Part shown: one piece after another, positions 7,224 through 17,919 of the stretch | Position numbering within the stretch: the first letter of the stretch is position 1 | How the letters are laid out: every line of letters starts with the position of its first letter | Assembly (NCBI GenBank): GCA_947623805.1 | Contig: CANQHZ010000026.1 | Coordinates: forward strand, 1 to 43,129 | Origin: an uncultured Lachnospiraceae bacterium | Lineage (GTDB): Bacteria; Bacillota; Clostridia; Lachnospirales; Lachnospiraceae | DNA length: 43,129 bases | Direction of reading: 5' to 3' | The notes under the pieces: generated by a model | The model's database searches: none | The model's input: only the letters and a program-made list of their open reading frames with translations | What the model was told of the DNA's origin: nothing | Made by a program: the position numbers and the translations under genes

Positions 7224-8483
7224 TTACGACCACTGCCACATATATTCGTCGTAGGAAATCAAGTCTATCACAGCCGCATTGCCGTTAATCTTTACAGGAA
7301 GCGCGGCCGCGTACATTGTGCCGATAACATCGCTTACGCCCTGTATTTCCCTAATCCGCTCCACAAGGCTTTTGTCCAGAGAATTGTCATTTTCCGCGCT
7401 TGCAATCACAAGGTCAGGCGCAAAATCGCTCTCCGACGGAAGGAGCCTTTGCACAAGGTCAAAGCAACCCGAAAAAACCAAAAACAGCGCAATCGTAAGC
7501 GCAAATGAACCCGTCATAAGAAACAGATTTTTCCTAGCCTCTGCCGCGTGACGGATTCCAAGGGATATTTCCACCTTGAAAAGCCTTGTGTTTGCCGAAT
7601 TTGTGATATTCTTAGGCTTATCGGCGTTTCCCGATACCGCCGCCACTGGCGGTACTGATGCCGCCTTTCTTGCAGGAGCTGCCGCCGCGAAAAGCACCGT
7701 AATAACGCCAACTGCCGCGCCGCACAAAATCCCGCTCACGCTCACGGCCAAAAGCGGCATATCGGCAAATTCTCCCTTTACAAGAAGCTTCAGCAGCGCA
7801 CACGCCGCCTGACAGACGGCAATGCCCGACAGACAGCCGATTGGAATTGCCGTTTTGCACCAGTTTAGCGCCTCAAGCCTCACGAAACGCACAATCTGCT
7901 GCCTGCTCGCGCCTATGCACCTAAGCATTCCGAAAAATTTTGTCCGCTGCGCCACATTGCTGTTCATGCAACTTGAAATCATAAACACTCCCGCCGCCAG
8001 TATGATTACAAAGCAGGCTGCCGCTAAGGGATATAACCCGTCTGCCTTCCCGCGGCTGCTTGCCCCAAGCGCCAGCAGGACGCCCGTATTTTCCTTTACA
8101 TCGACATCTGAAAGATTATATCTTTGCTTTACGCCGTCTATTGTCTTTTTCAGACCGCGCTCACTTTTAAACTTAATATAAAGCTGCGGACAATCATAGC
8201 CCTCGTCATCATCTTCACGGGCTGCGTCCTTCCATTCCGAAAAGGCAATATCTTCATTTTCGATTATCCGCGCCGCCGTTTCCTCCGTTATGCCGCACAG
8301 CGCGATATGCCAGTCGCCGTGCTTATTTCTCATGCTTTCCAGCTCTGCCCTTGTAAACATCTCCGTCATGGAAAAAATAGACGTCACAAGGAACACGGCA
8401 AGAATAATGCAAATCCGCGTCATGCGGCTCTGGCGTTTATGCACGCACGCTGAAATCGGTATAAGCCCAAGATAGCTTTTCAT
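7224..8483 (-). pseudogene. N-terminal part of a tandem-FtsX ABC permease ending at an in-frame TAA
   Basis: The start is the ATG at 8483, with GGGGAGG 8 bases upstream and an ATGA overlap with the ATPase stop. The 419-residue product has a membrane segment (about 23-42), an extracellular domain, three membrane segments (about 147-275) with the FtsX-like block RTKFFGMLRCIGASRQQI, a fifth membrane segment (about 320-342), and the start of a second extracellular domain. It stops after YMWQWS. The reading frame continues beyond the TAA without other damage through a complete second FtsX repeat. The intact protein would be the membrane subunit for the ATPase encoded just before it. A recent nonsense mutation or a sequencing error are the likely explanations. 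Confidence 0.8.
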
Positions 8484-9163
8484 TCGCCGCACCTCCCCAA
8501 ATCGGCCAGCACGCCGTCTGAAACCTGCAGCACGCGGTCGGCTGTCTGCGCAATGCCGCGGTTGTGCGTAATCATAATAATTGTCTGCTCATACTTTTTT
8601 GACGCCTCCTTTAACATAGCGATAACCTCGCTGCTGTTCTGCGAGTCAAGATTGCCTGTCGGCTCGTCGGCAAGAATAAGTGACGGACGTGTCATAAGTG
8701 CGCGTCCGATTGCCACTCTCTGTTGCTGCCCGCCCGAAAGCTGGCTTGGCAGATGCCTACGCCGCTCCTTTAGCTTCAGCGCTTCAAGCAGCTCCTCCAT
8801 ATGCCGCCCGTTTGGCTTCTGGTAATCAAGCAGGACAGGAAACACCATATTCTGCTCCACGGTAAGCTCTGGTATCAGGTTAAACGACTGAAATATAAAG
8901 CCGATATTGCGCCTGCGGAATACAGTAAGCTCCCTCTCCTTCATTGAAAACGTATCCTTGCCGTCAATCAGCACCTTGCCCGAAGTCGGTGTATCAAGCG
9001 CGCCGAGCATATTTAAAAGCGTGGTCTTGCCAGACCCCGACTCGCCGACAATCGCCACAAACTCGCCCTTGGCGACGCTAAAGCTGACATTCTTCAAGGC
9101 ATTTACAGCCGTCTCGCCACTCCCGTATGTCTTACAAATATTTCTGACTTCCAATAAATTCAT
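8480..9163 (-). CDS. ABC transporter ATP-binding protein (MacB/BceA type)
   Basis: The start is the ATG at 9163, preceded by GGAGG; readings from 9235 lack a site. The 227-residue protein has the full ABC ATPase set: Walker [11 protein letters not shown]-loop [14 protein letters not shown], signature LSGGQQQR, Walker B LILADEP and the switch histidine in MITHN. Its closest relatives by motif are the stand-alone ATPases that pair with FtsX-type permeases in peptide or antibiotic efflux and sensing (LolD/MacB/BceA group). The permease gene overlaps it by 4 bases. A two-component system lies upstream, the classic layout for drug-responsive ABC modules. With the permease interrupted, its function in this strain is uncertain. 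Confidence 0.9.
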
Positions 9164-9191
9164 CTCAAACCTCCTAAATTTAAATTTCTCG

Positions 9192-9364
9192 CGAAAAACG
9201 CCCGCCCTTGGCATCTCACAAAGCATTAACATCAATAATCTTTATGAAAAACAATTTCCATCAACATTTCACGGAATATTAACATCACCATGAAAAATAT
9301 CCAACTTCAACATTTCACAAAATATTAATGTCATCCTGAAAAATGCCCGCCCTTTGGCATTTTT
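9192..9364. repeat. Degenerate 46-bp tandem repeats
   Basis: Units starting TGAAAAA at 9245, 9291 and 9337 are exactly 46 bases apart and share TCAACATTTCACRRAATATTAA. A related unit starts at 9192 and shares GAAAAACGCCCGCCC with the last unit. The copies have drifted. The unit is too short, too few and too degenerate for a CRISPR array. The role is unknown, but the units lie wholly inside the presumed leader of the ABC operon. Confidence 0.55.
9339..9364 (-). terminator. Terminator-like hairpin in the ABC leader
   Basis: AAAAATGCC (9339-9347) pairs perfectly with GGCATTTTT (9356-9364) around an 8-base loop. Because both arms carry A/T runs, it can act in both directions. On the minus strand it lies after the histidine kinase and before the ABC genes, so it could separate the two operons or act as an attenuator of the ABC transcript. 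Confidence 0.6.
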
Positions 9365-9376
9365 CTAAACATTTAG

Positions 9377-9413
9377 AAACACTTGGGCAGCGTCTTTTGC
9401 TGCCTTAGTGTTT
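9377..9413 (-). terminator. Long hairpin after the histidine kinase gene
   Basis: AAACACT and GGCAGC (9377-9383, 9386-9391) pair with GCTGCC and AGTGTTT (9399-9404, 9407-9413), with one 2-base internal loop. There is no uninterrupted T-tract on the minus-strand side; on the plus strand TTTTTTT follows after 6 bases. It may be a terminator or an RNA structure at the beginning of the ABC leader. Confidence 0.45.
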
Positions 9414-9427
9414 CTTAATGTTTTTTT

Positions 9428-9481
9428 ATCATAACAGCCAAATCCTACATCTCCCCTACAGCCGCCCTACAGCTTTGTAGG
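9428..9481 (-). promoter_or_regulatory. Candidate response-regulator promoter: three 11-bp-phased CCTACA boxes
   Basis: CCTACA occurs at 9444-9449, 9455-9460 and 9466-9471, exactly 11 bases apart, and its complement TGTAGG at 9476-9481. On the minus strand the boxes lie 10 bases upstream of a -10-like TATGAT (9428-9433) and cover the position of the missing -35. This is the architecture of promoters activated by OmpR/PhoB-family regulators, which bind direct repeats one helical turn apart. The neighbouring response regulator is the obvious candidate. Binding itself is inference. Confidence 0.6.
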
Positions 9482-9499
9482 AATGTGACTTCCCAATGC

Positions 9500-10522
9500 T
9501 CATACAAGAAAATTCATCGTAAATAAAGTTCCCCTGCCCAGCTCGCTGTCCACCTCTATCGTGCCATCGTGAGCCTCCACTATCGCCTTTGCCAGCGTCA
9601 GTCCAAGCCCCAGCCCCCGCGTGTCCTTTGAAAAACGGCTTCTGTAAAATCTCTTAAAAATATGATACAAGTCCTCCTGATGTATGCCGCAGCCGTCGTC
9701 CCTTACCGCAATGCGCACAACCGACGCAAATGCGCTCCATTCCACACAGACAAGCCCTCCCTCATCAGTATGGTCAAGGGCATTTTTTATCAGGTTTCCA
9801 AGCGCCTCCTGCAGCCAAGTCCTGTCACAGCAGAGCATAATGTCATCGCCGCCCGACAGGCGTATTTCCTTTTTCTCCTGTCTTGCGCGGAACAAAAACT
9901 GTCTTTTTGCGCCCGCGGCAAGCTCCGCCACATTTATCACTGATTTTTCCAGCACGATTGTGCCAGCGTCAAGCCTTGCAAGCTTCAAAAGGTTCTGCAC
10001 CAGCGTTTCAATGCGGTCAAGCTCCTGCTCTGACATCTGGCAGATTTCCCTAATATCCGACTGCTCCTCCGCCTCATAAAGTATTCCGTTGTAAATATTG
10101 AGCGCGGCAAGCGGGGTTTTCAGCTGATGCGAAATATCGGATATCGTATCCTGCAGGAATTTTTTGGCGTTCTTTTCTCTTTCCGAATGGGCATTCAAAA
10201 TCGACGCCAGCGCGTTTATCTCGTGAAACAATCTGCAAAGCTCACCCTCGTCATTACACTCTATATATGAGTCCATATTGCCCGATATATATTCCTCAAT
10301 CTGCGAAACGGCATCTTCCATGGCACTGTGCTGCACCTCAAAATACCTGATACACAAAAATAACACGCCGATTCCCTCGCACAAAAAAACCGCCACAACA
10401 TACAGCGCCGCTCTGCCCCCGTCAAACGAAAGCAATAGCGCCAATACTGTCATAGCGGATAAAACACAGGACAAAATACCCGCAAAAAGGGCTTTAATTT
10501 TTCGGTCTGCAAATATCTTCAT
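9500..10522 (-). CDS. Sensor histidine kinase with short extracellular loop
   Basis: The start is the ATG at 10522, one base into the response regulator's stop codon. The 340-residue protein has two membrane helices (about 10-33 and 37-58) joined by only a few residues, so it has almost no extracellular sensor, as in intramembrane-sensing kinases of the BceS type. A HAMP-like linker leads to the phosphoacceptor box DISHQLKTPLAAL (His near residue 133). The ATPase domain shows the N box NLIKNALDHT, G1 DDGCGI and G2 RGLGLGL. It should phosphorylate the response regulator encoded just before it. Such kinases usually detect cell-envelope antibiotics through a partner ABC transporter, which fits the genes downstream. 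Confidence 0.9.
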   Translation of the reverse strand: MKIFADRKIKALFAGILSCVLSAMTVLALLLSFDGGRAALYVVAVFLCEGIGVLFLCIRYFEVQHSAMEDAVSQIEEYISGNMDSYIECNDEGELCRLFHEINALASILNAHSEREKNAKKFLQDTISDISHQLKTPLAALNIYNGILYEAEEQSDIREICQMSEQELDRIETLVQNLLKLARLDAGTIVLEKSVINVAELAAGAKRQFLFRARQEKKEIRLSGGDDIMLCCDRTWLQEALGNLIKNALDHTDEGGLVCVEWSAFASVVRIAVRDDGCGIHQEDLYHIFKRFYRSRFSKDTRGLGLGLTLAKAIVEAHDGTIEVDSELGRGTLFTMNFLV

Positions 10523-11217
10523 CACTCACCTCTGCCAGAAACATTCCATTTATATCCCATTCCGCGGACTGTCACGATATGCCTCGGCTCGCTGGGATTG
10601 TCCTCAATCTTCGTGCGGAGCCTGCGGATATACACGGTAAGCGAATTGTTGTCTATAAAATTTTCGTCGCAGTCCCACAGCCTGCCCAAAATCTGTTCAG
10701 CGGAAAGCACCTGATTAGGATTTTCCATAAAAAAGCACAGCAGCTTGTATTCACTCGCCGTCAGGTCAATCCGCCTGCCCGCTTTCCAGACCTCGCCCCT
10801 TGTGAGTCTCACGCTAATATCATTGGAGCAAAGCTCACCCGCCTGCCCCCCAAAGCCTTCGCTCCTGCGCAGCAGCGCATTAAGCCTTGAGAGGAATACG
10901 GCAAGCTTAAAAGGCTTCGTGATATAATCATCGCCACCTATGTCAAGCCCCATGATTATGTCCGTCTCATCATCAGCGGCAGTGAGAAACATAATCGGCA
11001 ACGCAGAGGTTTGTCTAATTTTCCTGCAAAAGTCAAAGCCTGAACCATCGGGCAATGACACATCTAAAATGGCAAGACGATATCTGCCCTCCTCCCACAG
11101 CGCATCCGCCTCCCTCGCAGTACGCGCCACAATCAATTCATAACCCTGTTTCTTTATGGCAAAAGAAAGCCCATTTATCAGGCTCAAATCATCCTCCAAC
11201 AGAAAAAGCTCTTTCAC
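10522..11217 (-). CDS. OmpR/PhoB-family response regulator
   Basis: I choose the GTG at 11217, which has GGAG 9 bases upstream and leads directly into the receiver domain (VKELFLLEDDLSL); a start at 11265 would add an unlikely tail. The 231-residue protein has the acidic pair EDD, the phosphoacceptor Asp in LAILDVSLPDGSG, the switch Thr in FLTA, and the Lys in YITKPF. The C-terminal half is a winged helix ending VRGMGYKW. It overlaps the kinase gene (TGATG), so the two are translated together. Its likely targets are its own promoter and that of the ABC operon, where phased CCTACA boxes are visible. Confidence 0.93.
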   Translation of the reverse strand: MKELFLLEDDLSLINGLSFAIKKQGYELIVARTAREADALWEEGRYRLAILDVSLPDGSGFDFCRKIRQTSALPIMFLTAADDETDIIMGLDIGGDDYITKPFKLAVFLSRLNALLRRSEGFGGQAGELCSNDISVRLTRGEVWKAGRRIDLTASEYKLLCFFMENPNQVLSAEQILGRLWDCDENFIDNNSLTVYIRRLRTKIEDNPSEPRHIVTVRGMGYKWNVSGRGE

Positions 11218-11243
11218 TCGCGCCAGCTCCTTTCGTATATACA

Positions 11244-11261
11244 ATGTATTGACAAATACAT
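11244..11261 (-). promoter_or_regulatory. Palindrome upstream of the response regulator
   Basis: ATGTATT (11244-11250) and AATACAT (11255-11261) form a perfect inverted repeat around GACA, 27 bases before the response-regulator start. Single CCTACA (11324-11329) and TGTAGG (11397-11402) motifs like those at the ABC promoter also occur further upstream. The palindrome could be an operator. No consensus promoter is clear. Confidence 0.35.
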
Positions 11262-11408
11262 TCATCTAAACGCACAATCCTGCACCCAAACAAAATAATA
11301 AGCGGCAACCCAGCCCGCGCAGCCCTACAGACAGCGCAGCCCAAACTACCACTTACGATTATAAACGATATTCAAAATGAGAACAACTTACAATTTTGTA
11401 GGGAAAAT

Positions 11409-12142: not shown

Positions 12143-12236
12143 AGCTTCCCCACTCCTCCCTAAACCACTGCATATGTAAATGCAATAAAAATATCCCTTT
12201 TCCGAGCATCATTTCCAACACATAAAAGCTAAAATA

Positions 12237-12875
12237 TTATACAATTTCTGACAGTTGCAATTGCTTCAAAAAGCGATCCTCAATATAATATTGAATATCC
12301 AACTTTTCTACCGATTGCTTTTTTGCTTTAATAGGTATTTTTAGTTTACCAAAAGAAACGCTCATTAAACCTATATTCAAATCCCTAAACTGTTGTCTGT
12401 CAACCTTGGACACATATTCTGAACTTAATGCAACATACACTTCATTGGCATATTGCTTATATCGGACCGCTTGTTCCAAACCAGATTTCCAATCAGAAAT
12501 TTTTGCTTCTACAGCAATAAAATTTTTAGTGACAGCATCTACCTTTTTTACAGAGGTAATATAATTACCCTCAATTTTTACATACCCCATATCTTCTAAT
12601 TCTCGAAGAAAATGATAAAATTTCTTTCCAATTTGCCCATCTGATATCTCGACATCTTCCAAATTAACTTTTTTATTATTATAAATATCACTAAAATAAT
12701 AATACGCATTAAAATATTCATCAAACACAACATTGCTTCTGTTAATTTCAGTTGAATAAACAATATCTGCAATATTATTTCCACCCCGTAACTCTCTGAC
12801 AATATAATGTGTCCCAAATCTTTCCCGCAAATCAGAAACCAATTTTTCTACTAATGCTTTTTCATTTACAAACAT
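12237..12875 (-). CDS. Hypothetical protein with a possible PD-(D/E)xK nuclease core and inserted winged helix
   Basis: The start is the ATG at 12875, with AGGTGA 5 bases upstream. The 212-residue protein shows D37 in NNIADIVY, then a helical insert (about 65-110, GKKFYHFLRELEDMGYVKIEG) that looks like a winged helix. After it comes the strand FIAVEAKISDW with E123-x-K125, and a helix with Q135 and Y139 (EQAVRYKQYANEVYVAL). This is the pattern of the PD-(D/E)xK fold used by restriction-type nucleases and by non-cleaving relatives. The family assignment is by motif only. It follows the kinase gene by 23 bases and ends a three-gene AT-rich cassette, so it may be the effector or DNA-recognition part of that system. 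Confidence 0.6.
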   Translation of the reverse strand: MFVNEKALVEKLVSDLRERFGTHYIVRELRGGNNIADIVYSTEINRSNVVFDEYFNAYYYFSDIYNNKKVNLEDVEISDGQIGKKFYHFLRELEDMGYVKIEGNYITSVKKVDAVTKNFIAVEAKISDWKSGLEQAVRYKQYANEVYVALSSEYVSKVDRQQFRDLNIGLMSVSFGKLKIPIKAKKQSVEKLDIQYYIEDRFLKQLQLSEIV

Positions 12876-12898
12876 ATCTCTCACCTGCTACTTTGCTT

Positions 12899-14896
12899 CT
12901 AAATTATCTTTTTTAAATTTTTCAGTAACTTATAATAGTCTGTATTTTTTTGAGTTCCCAAAATTTCTTTTGGTATCGCATCAAGATTATTTAAAGCTGA
13001 TTTAATCCGATCCTTCAAATAAGTAATTTTATCATTTACTGCACATTCATTTATCTTATCAACTTCCTCTATCATCATCTGCCAATGATGCAGCTGTATG
13101 CTTTTATCTCCTGTGCCTATTTCAATCGCTGATTTTCCACTGCACCACTTACAATTGCAGCCTCCAAAATAGTCATAAAGCTGTTTAAATGCAAATGTGT
13201 CCTTTTTGGGATATGTCAAAAATGATAATACTTGCGGAAAATAAAATTTTGAGTATAAATTAAATGAATCTTTTTCCTCTTTTATGTACTGCTCATCAAA
13301 ATAATCAATACTTGCCAGCCCCAGAGAAAAACCATGTATTCCCTTCGCAATCAATGTCAGCCCTAAAGGAATAGGAACTTTCAATGCAATCACAGGTTTA
13401 TTCGTATATTTTTGCAAATTAATCATAAAATCAAGATAACTTCCCAACGATTGTTCATTTAACTGTTTCATATCGGAAACCTGTACAATAAATCCATCTA
13501 CCTGTGCATGAACAAAATAAGACAATATTTTATCTGCCTGAAACACCAAATGACCAAGCCCTATTGATATCATTGCATACTTCTCTTTTCCTTCATCTAC
13601 CACCTGTACGCTTTCATCAATTAATTGAATGTTTATTTTAATCCAATCATCTATTTTATCTACAGAATAATCTGTATTGCTGATATAATGGTATGGTAAA
13701 ATCAATTTTTGTCCCATAGACACTGTAGAATACCATGTCTCGATATATTCTTTTCGCTTATTTGGATTATGTAAATATTCTAAGGAAATAACTCCCTTAT
13801 CTGGTGAATAAGGTAGATCTATCAGCCCCTTTGTATTAGCAAATGCAACATACGATAATCTTTGTGTAGAAGGATCAATAATTACATTTTTAAAATTATT
13901 TTTTGCAAAATATAAATGTAAATTTTTCATCCAATTTTGAACATGGATAGGATAAATAATATCCGATTTATTTACATTCTCAAATTGCTCTGTCACATCT
14001 TTCTCTCGATATATCCAAGCGTAATATTTTCCTACTGTTATCAGTTCTTCTTGAATATTATCTTTTTCAAAAGCATCTATGAACTCATCAACTGTCTGAA
14101 AACGTGCATATGGCTCTTTCGCAGTCGCTTTAAATATAATTCTTTCCAACCCATCACTAATATTAGGATTATACTGTCTAGGCGGAATAATTGGATCATT
14201 CAATATTTTCAATAGCAATTCGGGCAATGTTGCTGCTTTGTATGGAATATTCTTCGTCAACATTTCATATAAAATAATTCCTAATGCATATATATCAGCC
14301 CTGTAGTCAATGTGCTTGCTGTCCCTTAACTGTTCTGGCGACATATATAATGGCGACCCGATTTGTGCTCCTGTTGAGGTTATTGAAGAAAAATCTATAA
14401 TTTTGCTCAAGCCATAATCAATGATTTTAACATTCAAATTTTTATCAATCATTATGTTATCTGGCTTTAAATCTCTATGAATGATACCTTCTCTTTCAAT
14501 TATTGTAGTGTGCAACTCCTTTACCCCATTTAAAATATCCACAAAAATGTGAATTAATACGTCAGGCGAAGATGCTGTTTTCAAAAAATTTCTCAAAGTT
14601 ATGCCTTCAAAATACTCCATTACAATGACATATTCCATGATGCCAAATTCATTTTCAAAATAAAAATCCTCTTGATATTGAATCAGGTTTTTACCCTTTA
14701 CATTTTTTAAAACGTCAATTTCTCTCGTAATTCGATTCTGTTCGTTTTTAAATTCATCTAATATATAAGTCTCCGACAAGACTTTTGCGGCATACTTTTT
14801 ACCGTTCTTCGATACCCTGTATACATCTCCAAAACTTCCACTTCCAAGTGCTTCTTCAAATAAATAATCATTAATTACTCGTCCAACAATATTCAC
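12899..14896 (-). CDS. Cytosolic Ser/Thr protein kinase fused to a TIM-barrel-like, Cys-rich C-terminal domain
   Basis: I choose the GTG at 14896 (GAGG 9 bases upstream), 41 bases after the methyltransferase stop; a longer reading from 14986 would overlap that gene. The 665-residue protein has a complete kinase domain: glycine loop GSGSFG (18-23), K38, HRDLKPDN (140-147), DYG in place of DFG (160-162), and SPE (186-188). No membrane helix or PASTA repeats follow, unlike PknB-type receptors. Residues about 330-650 form an alpha/beta domain with alternating strands (KLILPYHYI, AMISIGLGHLV, VDGFIVQVSD, VIALKVPIPLG, IHGFSLGLASI). It ends in C580-x-C582-x-x-C585 with a His pair at 603-604, a zinc-site pattern reminiscent of tRNA-guanine transglycosylases. 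The relationship is inference. It is the middle gene of the defence-like cassette and visibly AT-rich. Confidence 0.82.
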   Translation of the reverse strand: MNIVGRVINDYLFEEALGSGSFGDVYRVSKNGKKYAAKVLSETYILDEFKNEQNRITREIDVLKNVKGKNLIQYQEDFYFENEFGIMEYVIVMEYFEGITLRNFLKTASSPDVLIHIFVDILNGVKELHTTIIEREGIIHRDLKPDNIMIDKNLNVKIIDYGLSKIIDFSSITSTGAQIGSPLYMSPEQLRDSKHIDYRADIYALGIILYEMLTKNIPYKAATLPELLLKILNDPIIPPRQYNPNISDGLERIIFKATAKEPYARFQTVDEFIDAFEKDNIQEELITVGKYYAWIYREKDVTEQFENVNKSDIIYPIHVQNWMKNLHLYFAKNNFKNVIIDPSTQRLSYVAFANTKGLIDLPYSPDKGVISLEYLHNPNKRKEYIETWYSTVSMGQKLILPYHYISNTDYSVDKIDDWIKINIQLIDESVQVVDEGKEKYAMISIGLGHLVFQADKILSYFVHAQVDGFIVQVSDMKQLNEQSLGSYLDFMINLQKYTNKPVIALKVPIPLGLTLIAKGIHGFSLGLASIDYFDEQYIKEEKDSFNLYSKFYFPQVLSFLTYPKKDTFAFKQLYDYFGGCNCKWCSGKSAIEIGTGDKSIQLHHWQMMIEEVDKINECAVNDKITYLKDRIKSALNNLDAIPKEILGTQKNTDYYKLLKNLKKII

Positions 14897-14937
14897 TTGT
14901 GTTTTCCTCGCTTTCACTAAAAATGCAGATAATATTT

Positions 14938-17703
14938 TTACACAGTTGTAATTTTCTGATACATCTTCATCAGTTCTGCCACGCAACTTTCCTCTGTAGT
15001 GTCCTTAACCGAAAAGCCGTATGCCTGCATAACTGCCCTGTCATTCTGTTGGTGTGCTTTTCTTAGTTCGGTCGGCATCAACAATTCATCATAAAGCTCC
15101 GCCAGCGTACTATTGGGATATAAGGCTCTGGCTGCTAAAATCCCCTTTGCTGTCTGCTCAATTTTTTCTCTCTGCTCATTTGTGGGATTGCACCAAGGAA
15201 AATTATTGTAAACTATTGTGTTTGAATAGCTGTAATCACTTTTTAATCTTCCGCAAACAGCTCTCATCCATGACATATGGACATTGGAAACAATTACCCC
15301 GAAATGATAAAGGGATGAATTTTTCATAACAAATAATTTATCCCCTGGTATAACATCTGCTGAGAGATAATCTATAGGAATATAACGCCTCTGCTCTGAA
15401 GATACTTTTGGGATAGCTACATAATCTGTATCACTTATGCGTATTTCATCAAATAGCGTTGGTGTAGCCGCTTTCTCCCTTGTTGCCGCTTTTTTGCTTT
15501 GTTCCCTAAATATTTGCACTTTTTTCACACGTTCCATAATCAAGCGGCTGTTTTTTATATCTTGTGGATTTGCTTCTGCTAACCATAGGCAGTACCTCGG
15601 CTGTCTTTGTATAAAATCACGCCCCATCATAAATGGTCTTATAAATCGCTCTGTCAGTGGCTCTTTCCGTATAAATTCTTCTTTCTCCTCCTCTGTCAAT
15701 ATCAGATTTCCATCATCTGTTGGCTGGCTGCCCCTGAACATTTCGGGTACATCGCACAATGGTTTACTTCTCCTGTCAATAAACACATTCTCGGCATTTA
15801 CTAAATAAGCATTGATATTACCCACATTTATCGAACGCTCACTTGTGTATATTACTTTTTGCTTTTTGCAGGGTGCTACACTAAAACCTATAATGACACA
15901 ATGAACGTGCGCTTTTATTTTCGCCTCGCTGTCCCAACGGAATGTGCGGTGCGCAAAATCTATATGAACACCCTCAGCAAATAACGGTCTCCAAAGTGCC
16001 GCCACTTGTTCACCCTGCGCAATAGAGTTAGTTGAAACAAGTGCTGCCCTTGCCTTTGAACCTTTCATATAATCTGCCGCTTTGCGATACCAACAGGAAA
16101 CATAATCCATATTTTTCCCCATATCGCCCATAATCATTGCCATTTCTGTTTTTTGCTTTTGGCTTTGATAGGCATACCCTACAAACGGTGGATTACCCAT
16201 AATGTAATCCAATTCATTTTGCGGGATGATGCTTTCCCACTTTAATGTTAATGCGTTCCCCTCAATCACATTCGCATACGATTTCAGCGGCAAAAAGTCA
16301 AGGCTCATATGCACTATGTCCTCTGTTTCCTTCATCATCTGACTTTCCGCAATCCATAGCGCCGTCTTTGCGACAGTTACGGCAAAATCATTGATTTCAA
16401 TTCCATAAAACTGACTGATTGATACCTGTATAGGATTGATTGCATCTCCAAGCACTATTTGCCCGCTCTGCAATTCATAGATAACTTCATTTTCTAGTCT
16501 GCGCATTGATATATAGGTTTCCGTTAAGAAATTTCCTGAACCGCACGCTGGGTCAAGAAATTTCAATCTCGCAAGTTTTTCTTGAAATGCGTTCAGCTTT
16601 GCTTTCTTTGTTCGTTCTACTGCAATCCCCTTAATCTCGTCAAACTCGGCTCTAAGCTCATCCATAAATAGCGGATTGATAACCTTGTGTATGTTCTCAA
16701 TGGAAGTATAGTGCATACCTCCGCTCCGCCTCGTTTCAGGATTTAATGTACTTTCAAATACTGCCCCAAAGATAGTCGGGCTTATGTCCGACCAGTCAAA
16801 ATCTTCACTCGCTTTATTCAAGAGTAGGCTTTTGATTTCCTCGGTAAACGGCGGTATCTCTATGGTTTCATCTGCGAACAGTCCGCCATTAACATACGGG
16901 AACGCTGCAAGCTTTGGATTATCCTCCGACAAATATTTGTCCCTGTCCTCTGGCTTAGTGTCCAGTATCTTAAACAGTTCTACAAGTGCTTTGCGAAAAC
17001 CATTTATAGGAATGTCTTTCAGATAATCGTGAAACATCATATGCGCACCAAAAATACCTGCGTCCTCTGCATACAGGCAGAAAACAAGGCGCACACACAA
17101 AGCATTAAGGCTCTTAAAAGATTGCTCATCAGGCTCTTTGTACTGCACTATCAGCTTATCATAAAGCAGACCGACAATCTCCCCCGCCTTAACCGATATT
17201 TCCATTTCGTGGGAAAGCTCCTTGACTTCTTTTTTGAACATAAAATCAAACAGCGGCAGCTTGTTGCGCACTTCCTCAAGTGGAATGACCGTTGCAGGCT
17301 CATTTGGCTTATTCATATCGTGTATTTCAAAGGTCTTGAAATTACAGGCAACTATCCATAAGGGTGTTTCATTAGGTATCATCCATTGTGCGTAATTGCG
17401 TCCCTGCTCAAACGGTGTTCGCATTGTGCCGTCTGACTGTTGTGCTTTCTTACTTAAATCTTTATCTATGCTTTTCTGCTCTATCAGCACTCTTGTCTCA
17501 GGTATATAGACATCTATGAATTTCGTTTGACCGTCCACGACTACACGCTTTTCAAAAATGATTTTCTTTGTCACATCTCCTATCCCAAGCACATTGCTGA
17601 AAAACTCAATCCAGAAACGCTGGCTGTCGCTTTTCTCGTCCCCGATGCCCCGCCAATCATTGTAAAATTTAGTAGCTGCTGATCTCTTTTCCGCCTCTGT
17701 CAT
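14938..17703 (-). CDS. MmeI-like single-chain restriction-modification enzyme (class I SAM-dependent DNA methyltransferase)
   Basis: The start is the ATG at 17703, with GAGG 6 bases upstream (an ATG at 17715 overlaps that site). The 921-residue protein follows the MmeI plan. The N-terminal domain carries FIDVYIPETRVLIEQK, giving the nuclease motif D64...E75-x-K77. A helical connector follows (about 160-340). The gamma-type N6-adenine methyltransferase core has motif I DPACGSGNF (384-392) and motif IV NPPF (504-507). A C-terminal target-recognition region runs from about 620 to 880. Such enzymes methylate one strand of an asymmetric site and cut at a distance. All catalytic motifs look intact. 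It is the first gene of a cassette with a kinase and a small nuclease-like protein, transcribed from its own region after the DHHW gene terminator. Confidence 0.88.
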   Translation of the reverse strand: MTEAEKRSAATKFYNDWRGIGDEKSDSQRFWIEFFSNVLGIGDVTKKIIFEKRVVVDGQTKFIDVYIPETRVLIEQKSIDKDLSKKAQQSDGTMRTPFEQGRNYAQWMIPNETPLWIVACNFKTFEIHDMNKPNEPATVIPLEEVRNKLPLFDFMFKKEVKELSHEMEISVKAGEIVGLLYDKLIVQYKEPDEQSFKSLNALCVRLVFCLYAEDAGIFGAHMMFHDYLKDIPINGFRKALVELFKILDTKPEDRDKYLSEDNPKLAAFPYVNGGLFADETIEIPPFTEEIKSLLLNKASEDFDWSDISPTIFGAVFESTLNPETRRSGGMHYTSIENIHKVINPLFMDELRAEFDEIKGIAVERTKKAKLNAFQEKLARLKFLDPACGSGNFLTETYISMRRLENEVIYELQSGQIVLGDAINPIQVSISQFYGIEINDFAVTVAKTALWIAESQMMKETEDIVHMSLDFLPLKSYANVIEGNALTLKWESIIPQNELDYIMGNPPFVGYAYQSQKQKTEMAMIMGDMGKNMDYVSCWYRKAADYMKGSKARAALVSTNSIAQGEQVAALWRPLFAEGVHIDFAHRTFRWDSEAKIKAHVHCVIIGFSVAPCKKQKVIYTSERSINVGNINAYLVNAENVFIDRRSKPLCDVPEMFRGSQPTDDGNLILTEEEKEEFIRKEPLTERFIRPFMMGRDFIQRQPRYCLWLAEANPQDIKNSRLIMERVKKVQIFREQSKKAATREKAATPTLFDEIRISDTDYVAIPKVSSEQRRYIPIDYLSADVIPGDKLFVMKNSSLYHFGVIVSNVHMSWMRAVCGRLKSDYSYSNTIVYNNFPWCNPTNEQREKIEQTAKGILAARALYPNSTLAELYDELLMPTELRKAHQQNDRAVMQAYGFSVKDTTEESCVAELMKMYQKITTV

Positions 17704-17823
17704 AATATACCTCATATTCTATAAAAAATATTTTCAAATAATTACCACTGATATATTATCATAAATCTATTGAAAAATCAGCAAAAACCATAAACTTTTA
17801 TTATCTGTAATGATTAAATGCAT

Positions 17824-17883
17824 AAAAAAATTTTCCCTTGTAAAACACCACATAAAGGCAAAAACAAGGGAAAGGTACATAAT
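17824..17883 (-). terminator. Rho-independent terminator after the DHHW gene
   Basis: TTTCCCTTGT (17832-17841) pairs with ACAAGGGAAA (17874-17883) across a 32-base loop. On the minus strand the stem is followed by a run of T (complement of 17824-17831). It lies 36 bases after the DHHW stop codon and separates the surface-polysaccharide operon from the defence-like cassette downstream. Confidence 0.8.
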
Positions 17884-17919
17884 TTAAAACTAATCTAAAC
17901 AAAGCTACACCCTAACAAT

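Follow-up and report, generated by a model that had tools for sequence, protein, structure and literature searches.

A mobile gene set joining a Ser/Thr kinase, a predicted TGT-fold domain and a predicted PD-(D/E)xK nuclease: a possible conflict system of bacteria

Ser/Thr kinases and homologues of tRNA-guanine transglycosylase (TGT) both occur in described defence systems of bacteria. For example, the KKP modules of Pf and P4/P2 prophages comprise a PP2C phosphatase and a pair of kinases that bear cold-shock or FHA domains (PMC11341870). In type 2 BREX and Pgl systems the kinase PglW accompanies the methylase PglX, and in MADS a kinase is found with a methyltransferase. TGT homologues are included in the Dpd and BRC systems (PMC12839542). 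Here, we describe a gene set that resembles each of these in some respect. It lies in a contig of 43,129 nucleotides from an uncultured Lachnospiraceae bacterium of the gut (GenBank assembly GCA_947623805.1, contig CANQHZ010000026.1), the whole of which is hereafter called the window. Three genes on the minus strand at 12237-17715 encode an MmeI-type restriction-modification (R-M) enzyme, a Ser/Thr kinase domain (K) fused to a predicted TGT-fold domain (T), and a protein (S) of predicted PD-(D/E)xK fold. K, T and S form a unit that recurs, mostly without the R-M enzyme, and the open PMC literature yielded no account of such a unit, in which a TGT-fold domain is coupled to a kinase and accompanied by a PD-(D/E)xK protein.

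The three genes are co-directional and closely spaced, as the first-pass annotation of this DNA had said: by their coordinates, 41 nt separate the MmeI stop from the K-T start and 14 nt the K-T stop from the S start, and the trio is probably co-transcribed. The annotation had also called the trio AT-rich, which is right for K-T (31.3% GC) and S (30.4%) and wrong for the MmeI gene (41.5%), which comes near the 44.4% of the remainder of the window. Its proposals of a cytosolic kinase with an unusual C-terminal domain and of a possible PD-(D/E)xK core in the third protein both stood up, the former through kept kinase motifs and a C-terminal domain predicted to be a TGT-fold barrel, the latter through the predicted fold and motif. 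The features are as follows.

14938..17715, minus strand: MmeI-type (type IIG/IIL) R-M enzyme, 925 aa, identified by Pfam MmeI domains and motifs
12899..14896, minus strand: K-T, Ser/Thr kinase fused to a predicted TGT-fold domain, 665 aa, likely GTG start at 14896
14066..14878, minus strand: kinase domain K (Pkinase), with GSGSFG, AAK, HRDLKPDN and DYG
12902..14065, minus strand: predicted TGT-fold domain T, 388 aa (AlphaFold2 pLDDT 87.9; Foldseek and VIA matches to TGT)
13874..13876, minus strand: Asp64 of T within IIDPST, Asp in all 46 members with a residue there
13142..13159, minus strand: CNCKWC, TGT-like zinc motif of T, CxCxxC in 25 of 49 members
13088-13090, minus strand: His326 of T, paired with CNCKWC, His in 48 of 49 members
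12237..12884, minus strand: S, 215 aa, predicted PD-(D/E)xK fold interrupted by an inserted winged helix (residues 53-113, approximately), with D40, E126, K128 and Q138

The K-T frame is open from 14986, and the GTG at 14896 is the start favoured by relatives. K matches Pfam Pkinase at E=6.8e-47 and has all the hallmarks of a Hanks-type Ser/Thr kinase (Gly-loop, Lys, HRD..N and a DFG-like motif). Among 45 kinases of K-T-S loci, the HRD motif is present in 43 and a DFG-like motif, sought with a narrow pattern, in 39. K looks like an active cytosolic kinase.

T is predicted to be a TGT-fold barrel that spans the whole domain, and its model also resembles, in a structure search, phage proteins annotated as queuine tRNA-ribosyltransferases. 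T was placed by fold search only: it has no match in Pfam, in a PDB profile search or in a profile comparison with seven Lachnospiraceae TGTs; none of 49 members matches PF01702 at E<=10, and a PF01702 search of its own genome found C14 and C17 and not the window. The 49 members come from the 51 T stretches that exceed 250 aa; L010, L011 and L014 were dropped as near-copies and the window was added (L numbers denote loci). The TGT residues D102, D156, Q203 and D280 are given in the Zymomonas numbering. By strand order, Asp64 of T would be the partner of the Asp in the TGT motif 'LTDSGG'. The position of the TGT nucleophile on strand 8, matched in the same way rather than by residue-level superposition, is Asp in none of the 49 members (S 14, T 14, A 7, G 6, E 5, others 3), and the positions matching D156 and Q203 by strand order are not conserved. 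T differs from the TGT family (QTRT1, bacterial and archaeal TGT) in having no detectable sequence similarity to it and no nucleophile Asp, and in being fused or coupled to a kinase. In PADLOC, T gave five weak families, none named dpd, the presence of dpdA in that library being unchecked; a family that fails to appear in the fold libraries is not thereby excluded.

S has no Pfam match, and by its modelled fold with D...ExK...Q it belongs to the PD-(D/E)xK nuclease superfamily. In an alignment of 55 rows (L010, L011, L014, L017, L046, L050, L056, L060 and L070 dropped, the window added), D40 is found in 49 of 50 and Q138 in 55 of 55. A single-sequence search of PDB with S returned only noise. 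In a profile search the middle part of S matches winged-helix regulators, because a winged helix is inserted in the S model. Assignment of S to NCBIfam sce7726 was rejected at 18.1 bits against a cut-off of 70.

How widely does this gene set recur? A scan of 84,980 genomes with one ten-residue pattern from S matched 74 stretches, and 63 loci were confirmed; since the scan returns only loci with that pattern, the locus counts describe the pattern-matching sample. K, T and S occur together in 45 of them, S with T in 6 and S alone in 12. By record titles, the 45 complete loci belong to Bacillota, Patescibacteria, Pseudomonadota, Actinomycetota, Myxococcota, Chloroflexota, Campylobacterota, Bacteroidota and Acidobacteriota. 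The layout varies: fused K-T followed by S, S convergent with T-K, S-K-T, and, in L047, separate genes in the order K-T-S. S is co-directional or convergent with K-T, fused or as adjacent genes, and in many loci convergent S and T-K overlap. Across 51 loci the pairwise distances of the three parts are correlated (S-T r 0.894, S-K 0.888, K-T 0.948), values that none of 1000 permutations reached (maximum 0.192) and that, computed without species-tree control, partly reflect host relatedness. Clustering the flanking open reading frames (ORFs) of the 63 loci found no fourth universal gene; the groups present in at least three loci are MmeI (four loci), a serine-recombinase group, one broad unidentified group and three groups confined to three syntenic archaeal loci without T.

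Searches seeded with T gave ten matches apart from the centres: three among 299 genomes from the window's phylum, one among 369 from the class to which the genome of L043 belongs and six among 394 from that of L045; the 150 genomes from the window's family gave none. Six of the ten adjoin S, five of these with K and the sixth beginning at a contig edge, and four have neither K nor S. This outcome indicates that the module is rare per group (about 1-2% of genomes) and that T-like proteins also serve elsewhere. Independence of the T and S searches is incomplete, since L007, reached through T, seems to be the same stretch of a record as L031, reached through S. Because ORFs of the found loci fed the iterations of the T profile, the E-values of weak T members are optimistic.

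How does this unit compare with the described systems? Like KKP, it has a Ser/Thr kinase with a C-terminal non-kinase domain and a prophage or satellite setting, sometimes near R-M genes, and a phosphatase occurs in L026 and L037. Unlike KKP, it has a single kinase, joined by a TGT-fold domain and a PD-(D/E)xK protein, and its two neighbouring phosphatases are PPP-type. Pfam gives no cold-shock or FHA domain on the window kinase, and membership of KKP was rejected on this ground; PP2C was not searched separately. Like type 2 BREX and Pgl, the window, L028 and L030 have a kinase near an MmeI-like or PglX-like methylase. BREX was rejected, in line with the first-pass annotation: PglZ (PF08665) has no match in the genome itself, which is 95.7% complete, and was positive in 2 of 14 control genomes. 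The window kinase scores 73.7 bits against the PglW model, whose cut-off is 990. Like MADS, the window combines a kinase with a methyltransferase, and its kinase domain is similar to mad6; MADS was rejected, with 136.9 bits for MAD6 against a cut-off of 460 and 22.2 for MAD2 against 720. Like Dpd and BRC, K-T-S would place a TGT-fold protein in a defence setting. It is unlike them in that kinase-TGT coupling is absent from the accessible portion of their account (PMC12839542), that T has no nucleophile, and that no dpd partner recurs at K-T-S loci.

The module is mobile, and in the window it sits within an insertion. Two further features bear on this and on the MmeI enzyme.

12158..17903, no strand: inserted segment, absent at the syntenic site of the same-genus genome L103
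15121..16004, minus strand: stretch of MmeI (methyltransferase end and target-recognition domain) that does not align by blastn with DNA of the near-identical locus L010, whereas the stretches on either side are 95-96.5% identical

In L103 the flanking DHHW and DUF2975 genes are separated by about 300 bp that hold no gene, and homology with the window picks up again at window 17903 and 12158, so that 12158-17903 behaves as one insertion. The DNA shared with L011 covers 12237-17786 and that shared with L012 covers 12240-17706, with a break inside MmeI and differing flanks. Because both loci carry all three genes amid other flanks, the trio moves as one block. L013 and L014 align with the window over 12235-14895 only, that is, K-T and S without MmeI, and L015 and L016 do likewise.

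Plasmid copies of the module are found in Priestia, Kocuria, Polaromonas and Kineococcus. Of 11 pattern matches in viral contigs, 3 were confirmed, and each of these has K, T and S. Next to or near the module, serine recombinases, large or small, were seen by eye in L013, L051, L062 and L072, and Pfam Resolvase was found in 2 of 141 flanking proteins. These 141 of 166 flanking ORFs were scanned as a set; 5 longer than 1000 aa were left out (that of L030 scanned separately; two of L047 and those of L055 and L059 excluded), as were 20 others, nearly all short. Defence-type neighbours were counted without a control set, and no enrichment is claimed. In L030 the order is PtuA (E 5.5e-133), a PglX/type-IIG-like enzyme (E 0), K-T, S and an LmuA-like gene (E 1.6e-19). 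In L026, psu lies 0.3 kb from K, with AbiEi, SymE and HNH genes farther along and no integrase among the ten ORFs scanned; psu-int is a known antiviral hotspot in P4 satellites (PMC9122126). A PPP-type Ser/Thr phosphatase adjoins S in L026 (7089-7853, Pfam Metallophos) and in L037 (314-1081, by eye). A dCTP-deaminase-type defence protein lies near L049, and the pooled flank scan also gave JetA, JetB, AbiEi and AbiEii, once each per model.

As to the MmeI gene, all five Pfam domains (MmeI_N, hel, Mtase, TRD and C) are above cut-off, the match to PADLOC REase_MTase_IIG has E=0, and the nuclease and methylase motifs D..ExK, DPACGSG and NPPF are intact. Judged from these domains and motifs, it is a complete single-chain member of the MmeI-type (IIG/IIL) enzymes, as had been proposed, and is unusual among them only in its company. 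In L010, whose flanks are 94.6-96.5% identical to the window at the DNA level in long stretches and 88.9% in one short stretch, the N-terminal part of MmeI has 99% amino-acid identity to the window protein and the target-recognition domain 40%, with K 98.5%, T 100% and S 100% identical. The alignments indicate that the recognition domain has been exchanged in L010 while K-T-S stayed constant. Since the domain was swapped next to a K-T-S that is 98.5-100% identical, K-T-S would tolerate any specificity. Over L010, L011, L012 and L028, identity to the window is 40-53% in the recognition domain and 84-99% in the N-terminal part. These four are the only ones of 51 loci with S and T that MmeI adjoins. 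In L030 the PglX/type-IIG-like enzyme stands upstream of K-T in MmeI's place, and in L027 one gene separates the module from a type II methyltransferase. L028 joins a related MmeI (72% identity) to a distant K-T-S (K 42%, T 29%), so there have been at least two origins or exchanges of this pairing. L013-L016 have K 71-86% identical to that of the window and no MmeI. MmeI is an add-on and not a fixed part of the module, with a leaning towards R-M company in Bacillota.

Computed here are the gene set, two predicted folds, the kinase and nuclease motifs, the loss of the nucleophile as placed by strand order, and the recurrence, co-divergence, mobility and defence-type neighbours. With slightly less than even confidence, we read K-T-S as a mobile conflict system gated by phosphorylation and aimed, most likely, at phages or plasmids. 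T, a TGT-fold barrel without the nucleophile, would sense or bind a sign of invasion, be it a base, a nucleotide or a nucleic acid; the ligand would free or activate K, whether attached or separately encoded next to T; K would phosphorylate S or its winged helix (or T), and the phosphorylation would unleash the nuclease S on DNA. In the window's clade, an independent MmeI enzyme in the same cassette would add site-specific restriction. Reversible phosphorylation is plausible in view of the phosphatases in L026 and L037 and of the KKP precedent (PMC11341870). A broader reading, possible yet doubtful, sees in K-T-S a widely scattered and so far undescribed form of immunity: a TGT barrel, once a base-exchange enzyme and now a sensor of some base, nucleotide or tRNA/DNA state that phages alter, would be wired via a kinase to a winged-helix PD-(D/E)xK nuclease, the same sensor would work with Xre-RES toxins, and the MmeI, PglX-like and LmuA/PtuA neighbours would be layers of one island. 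On that sensor reading, the family of T is plugged into other effectors, notably Xre-RES, so that bacteria would use T repeatedly as a sensing domain in immunity.

Several observations weigh against a phosphorylation-gated defence system, whose role is itself read from genomic context. TGT membership of T has no sequence support from Pfam, PDB profile search or profile comparison, and CxCxxC is present in 25 of 49 T members and absent in 24. The invariance of E126, K128 and W132 in S is by construction, because these residues sat in the search pattern; ExK is independently supported in L007-L009 and L127, reached through T. K would fall off the contig in three S-T loci (L023, L027 and L031); in L032, L046 and L070, all of which have T or a part of it, no K was found. 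Of the 12 S-only loci, two (L017 and L040) are close to the end of a contig, one (L044) is complete and lacks K and T, and nine have a short S; the distance correlations owe something to host relatedness, as said above. The majority of flanking families in relatives are seen no more than twice. The flanks of the window itself do not form a defence island, and their proteins have no PADLOC defence matches except an ABC-ATPase-like mad3/mad8 cross-hit and one marginal match. No match to the T of the window or of L026 was found in 50,697 phage records, and the K-T-S of L026 was unmatched in E. coli genomes.

What else could the module be? It might serve to stabilise mobile elements as a toxin-antitoxin or addiction module, in which S or K is the toxin and phosphorylation the antidote, any defence being incidental; plasmids, recombinases, satellites, the convergent S/T-K overlap and the T-like proteins beside Xre-RES pairs would suit it, as would KKP, which is reported to be a toxin-antitoxin module of kinases and a phosphatase with a defence function as well (PMC11341870). 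We think this rather unlikely, as three large enzymes with active motifs are heavy for an addiction module and L030 lies in a defence island. It is unlikely, too, that T is a working base-exchange or base-modifying enzyme, DpdA-like, which marks self DNA or RNA while S cuts unmarked DNA and K regulates. The TGT fold, the queuine-annotated structural matches, the one Asp kept, the zinc motif of 25 members and the nuclease-like S would fit such an enzyme; against it stand the missing Asp at the nucleophile position in all 49 members, the unkept positions matching D156 and Q203, and the lack of a recurrent partner beyond K, T, S and the four MmeI, bar the recombinase, broad and archaeal groups.

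The first-pass annotation had instead joined MmeI, kinase and nuclease into one three-part, methylation-dependent response, which now seems quite unlikely. The block common to L010-L012, with homology stopping at its edges, speaks for it, as do the separate pairing in L028 and the PglX/IIG-like enzyme in the same upstream place in L030; L011 and L012, with their other flanks, show that the genes are not independent neighbours in one genome only. Yet the homologues occur mostly without a methyltransferase (MmeI at 4 of 51 loci, a PglX/IIG-like enzyme at 1 and a type II methyltransferase at 1), L013-L016 go without MmeI, its GC content differs, and its recognition domain was swapped in L010 beside a nearly unchanged K-T-S, so that the conserved unit is K-T-S without the methyltransferase. 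That the trio are unrelated neighbours joined by chance in a variable region is highly improbable: differing GC content would suit it, and for K, T and S it is already contradicted by their union in 45 of 63 loci, the reciprocal T search and their co-divergence.

If K-T-S is a phosphorylation-gated conflict system, a kinase-gated nuclease system would be added to bacterial immunity, and the fold of a tRNA base-swapping enzyme would have been reused as a signalling or sensing domain. It would also give a testable reason for phage TGT/DpdA homologues, which could alter or evade what T reads. T would account for the C-terminal domain, so far unannotated, of plasmid kinases labelled only 'serine/threonine-protein kinase', and the MmeI case points to recognition-domain change within a moving defence cassette.

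Some further observations concern relatives and surroundings. Stand-alone T-like proteins lie beside RES toxins at L121:3286-5508, L126:3381-5737 and L124:264-2577; these are three of the four T-like loci without K and S, an Xre/MbcA-type antitoxin is also present in L121 and L126, and the neighbours possibly form a three-gene Xre-RES-T system. Seven of the nine short-S loci are archaeal by record title; such S relatives without K or T include L065, L067 and L068, and synteny is conserved in three Thermoplasmata/Methanomassiliicoccales loci. The empty site of L103 (L103:2171-2470) contains an imperfect inverted repeat, GC-rich and some 200 bp long, with CCCGCCCATGGGC arms, which was not found in the window in a search at <=1 mismatch. 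We judge the mad3/mad8 match at 8480-9235 of the window to be a cross-hit from an ABC-type ATPase; this ATPase and a further gene lie next to a two-component system at 7224-11265.

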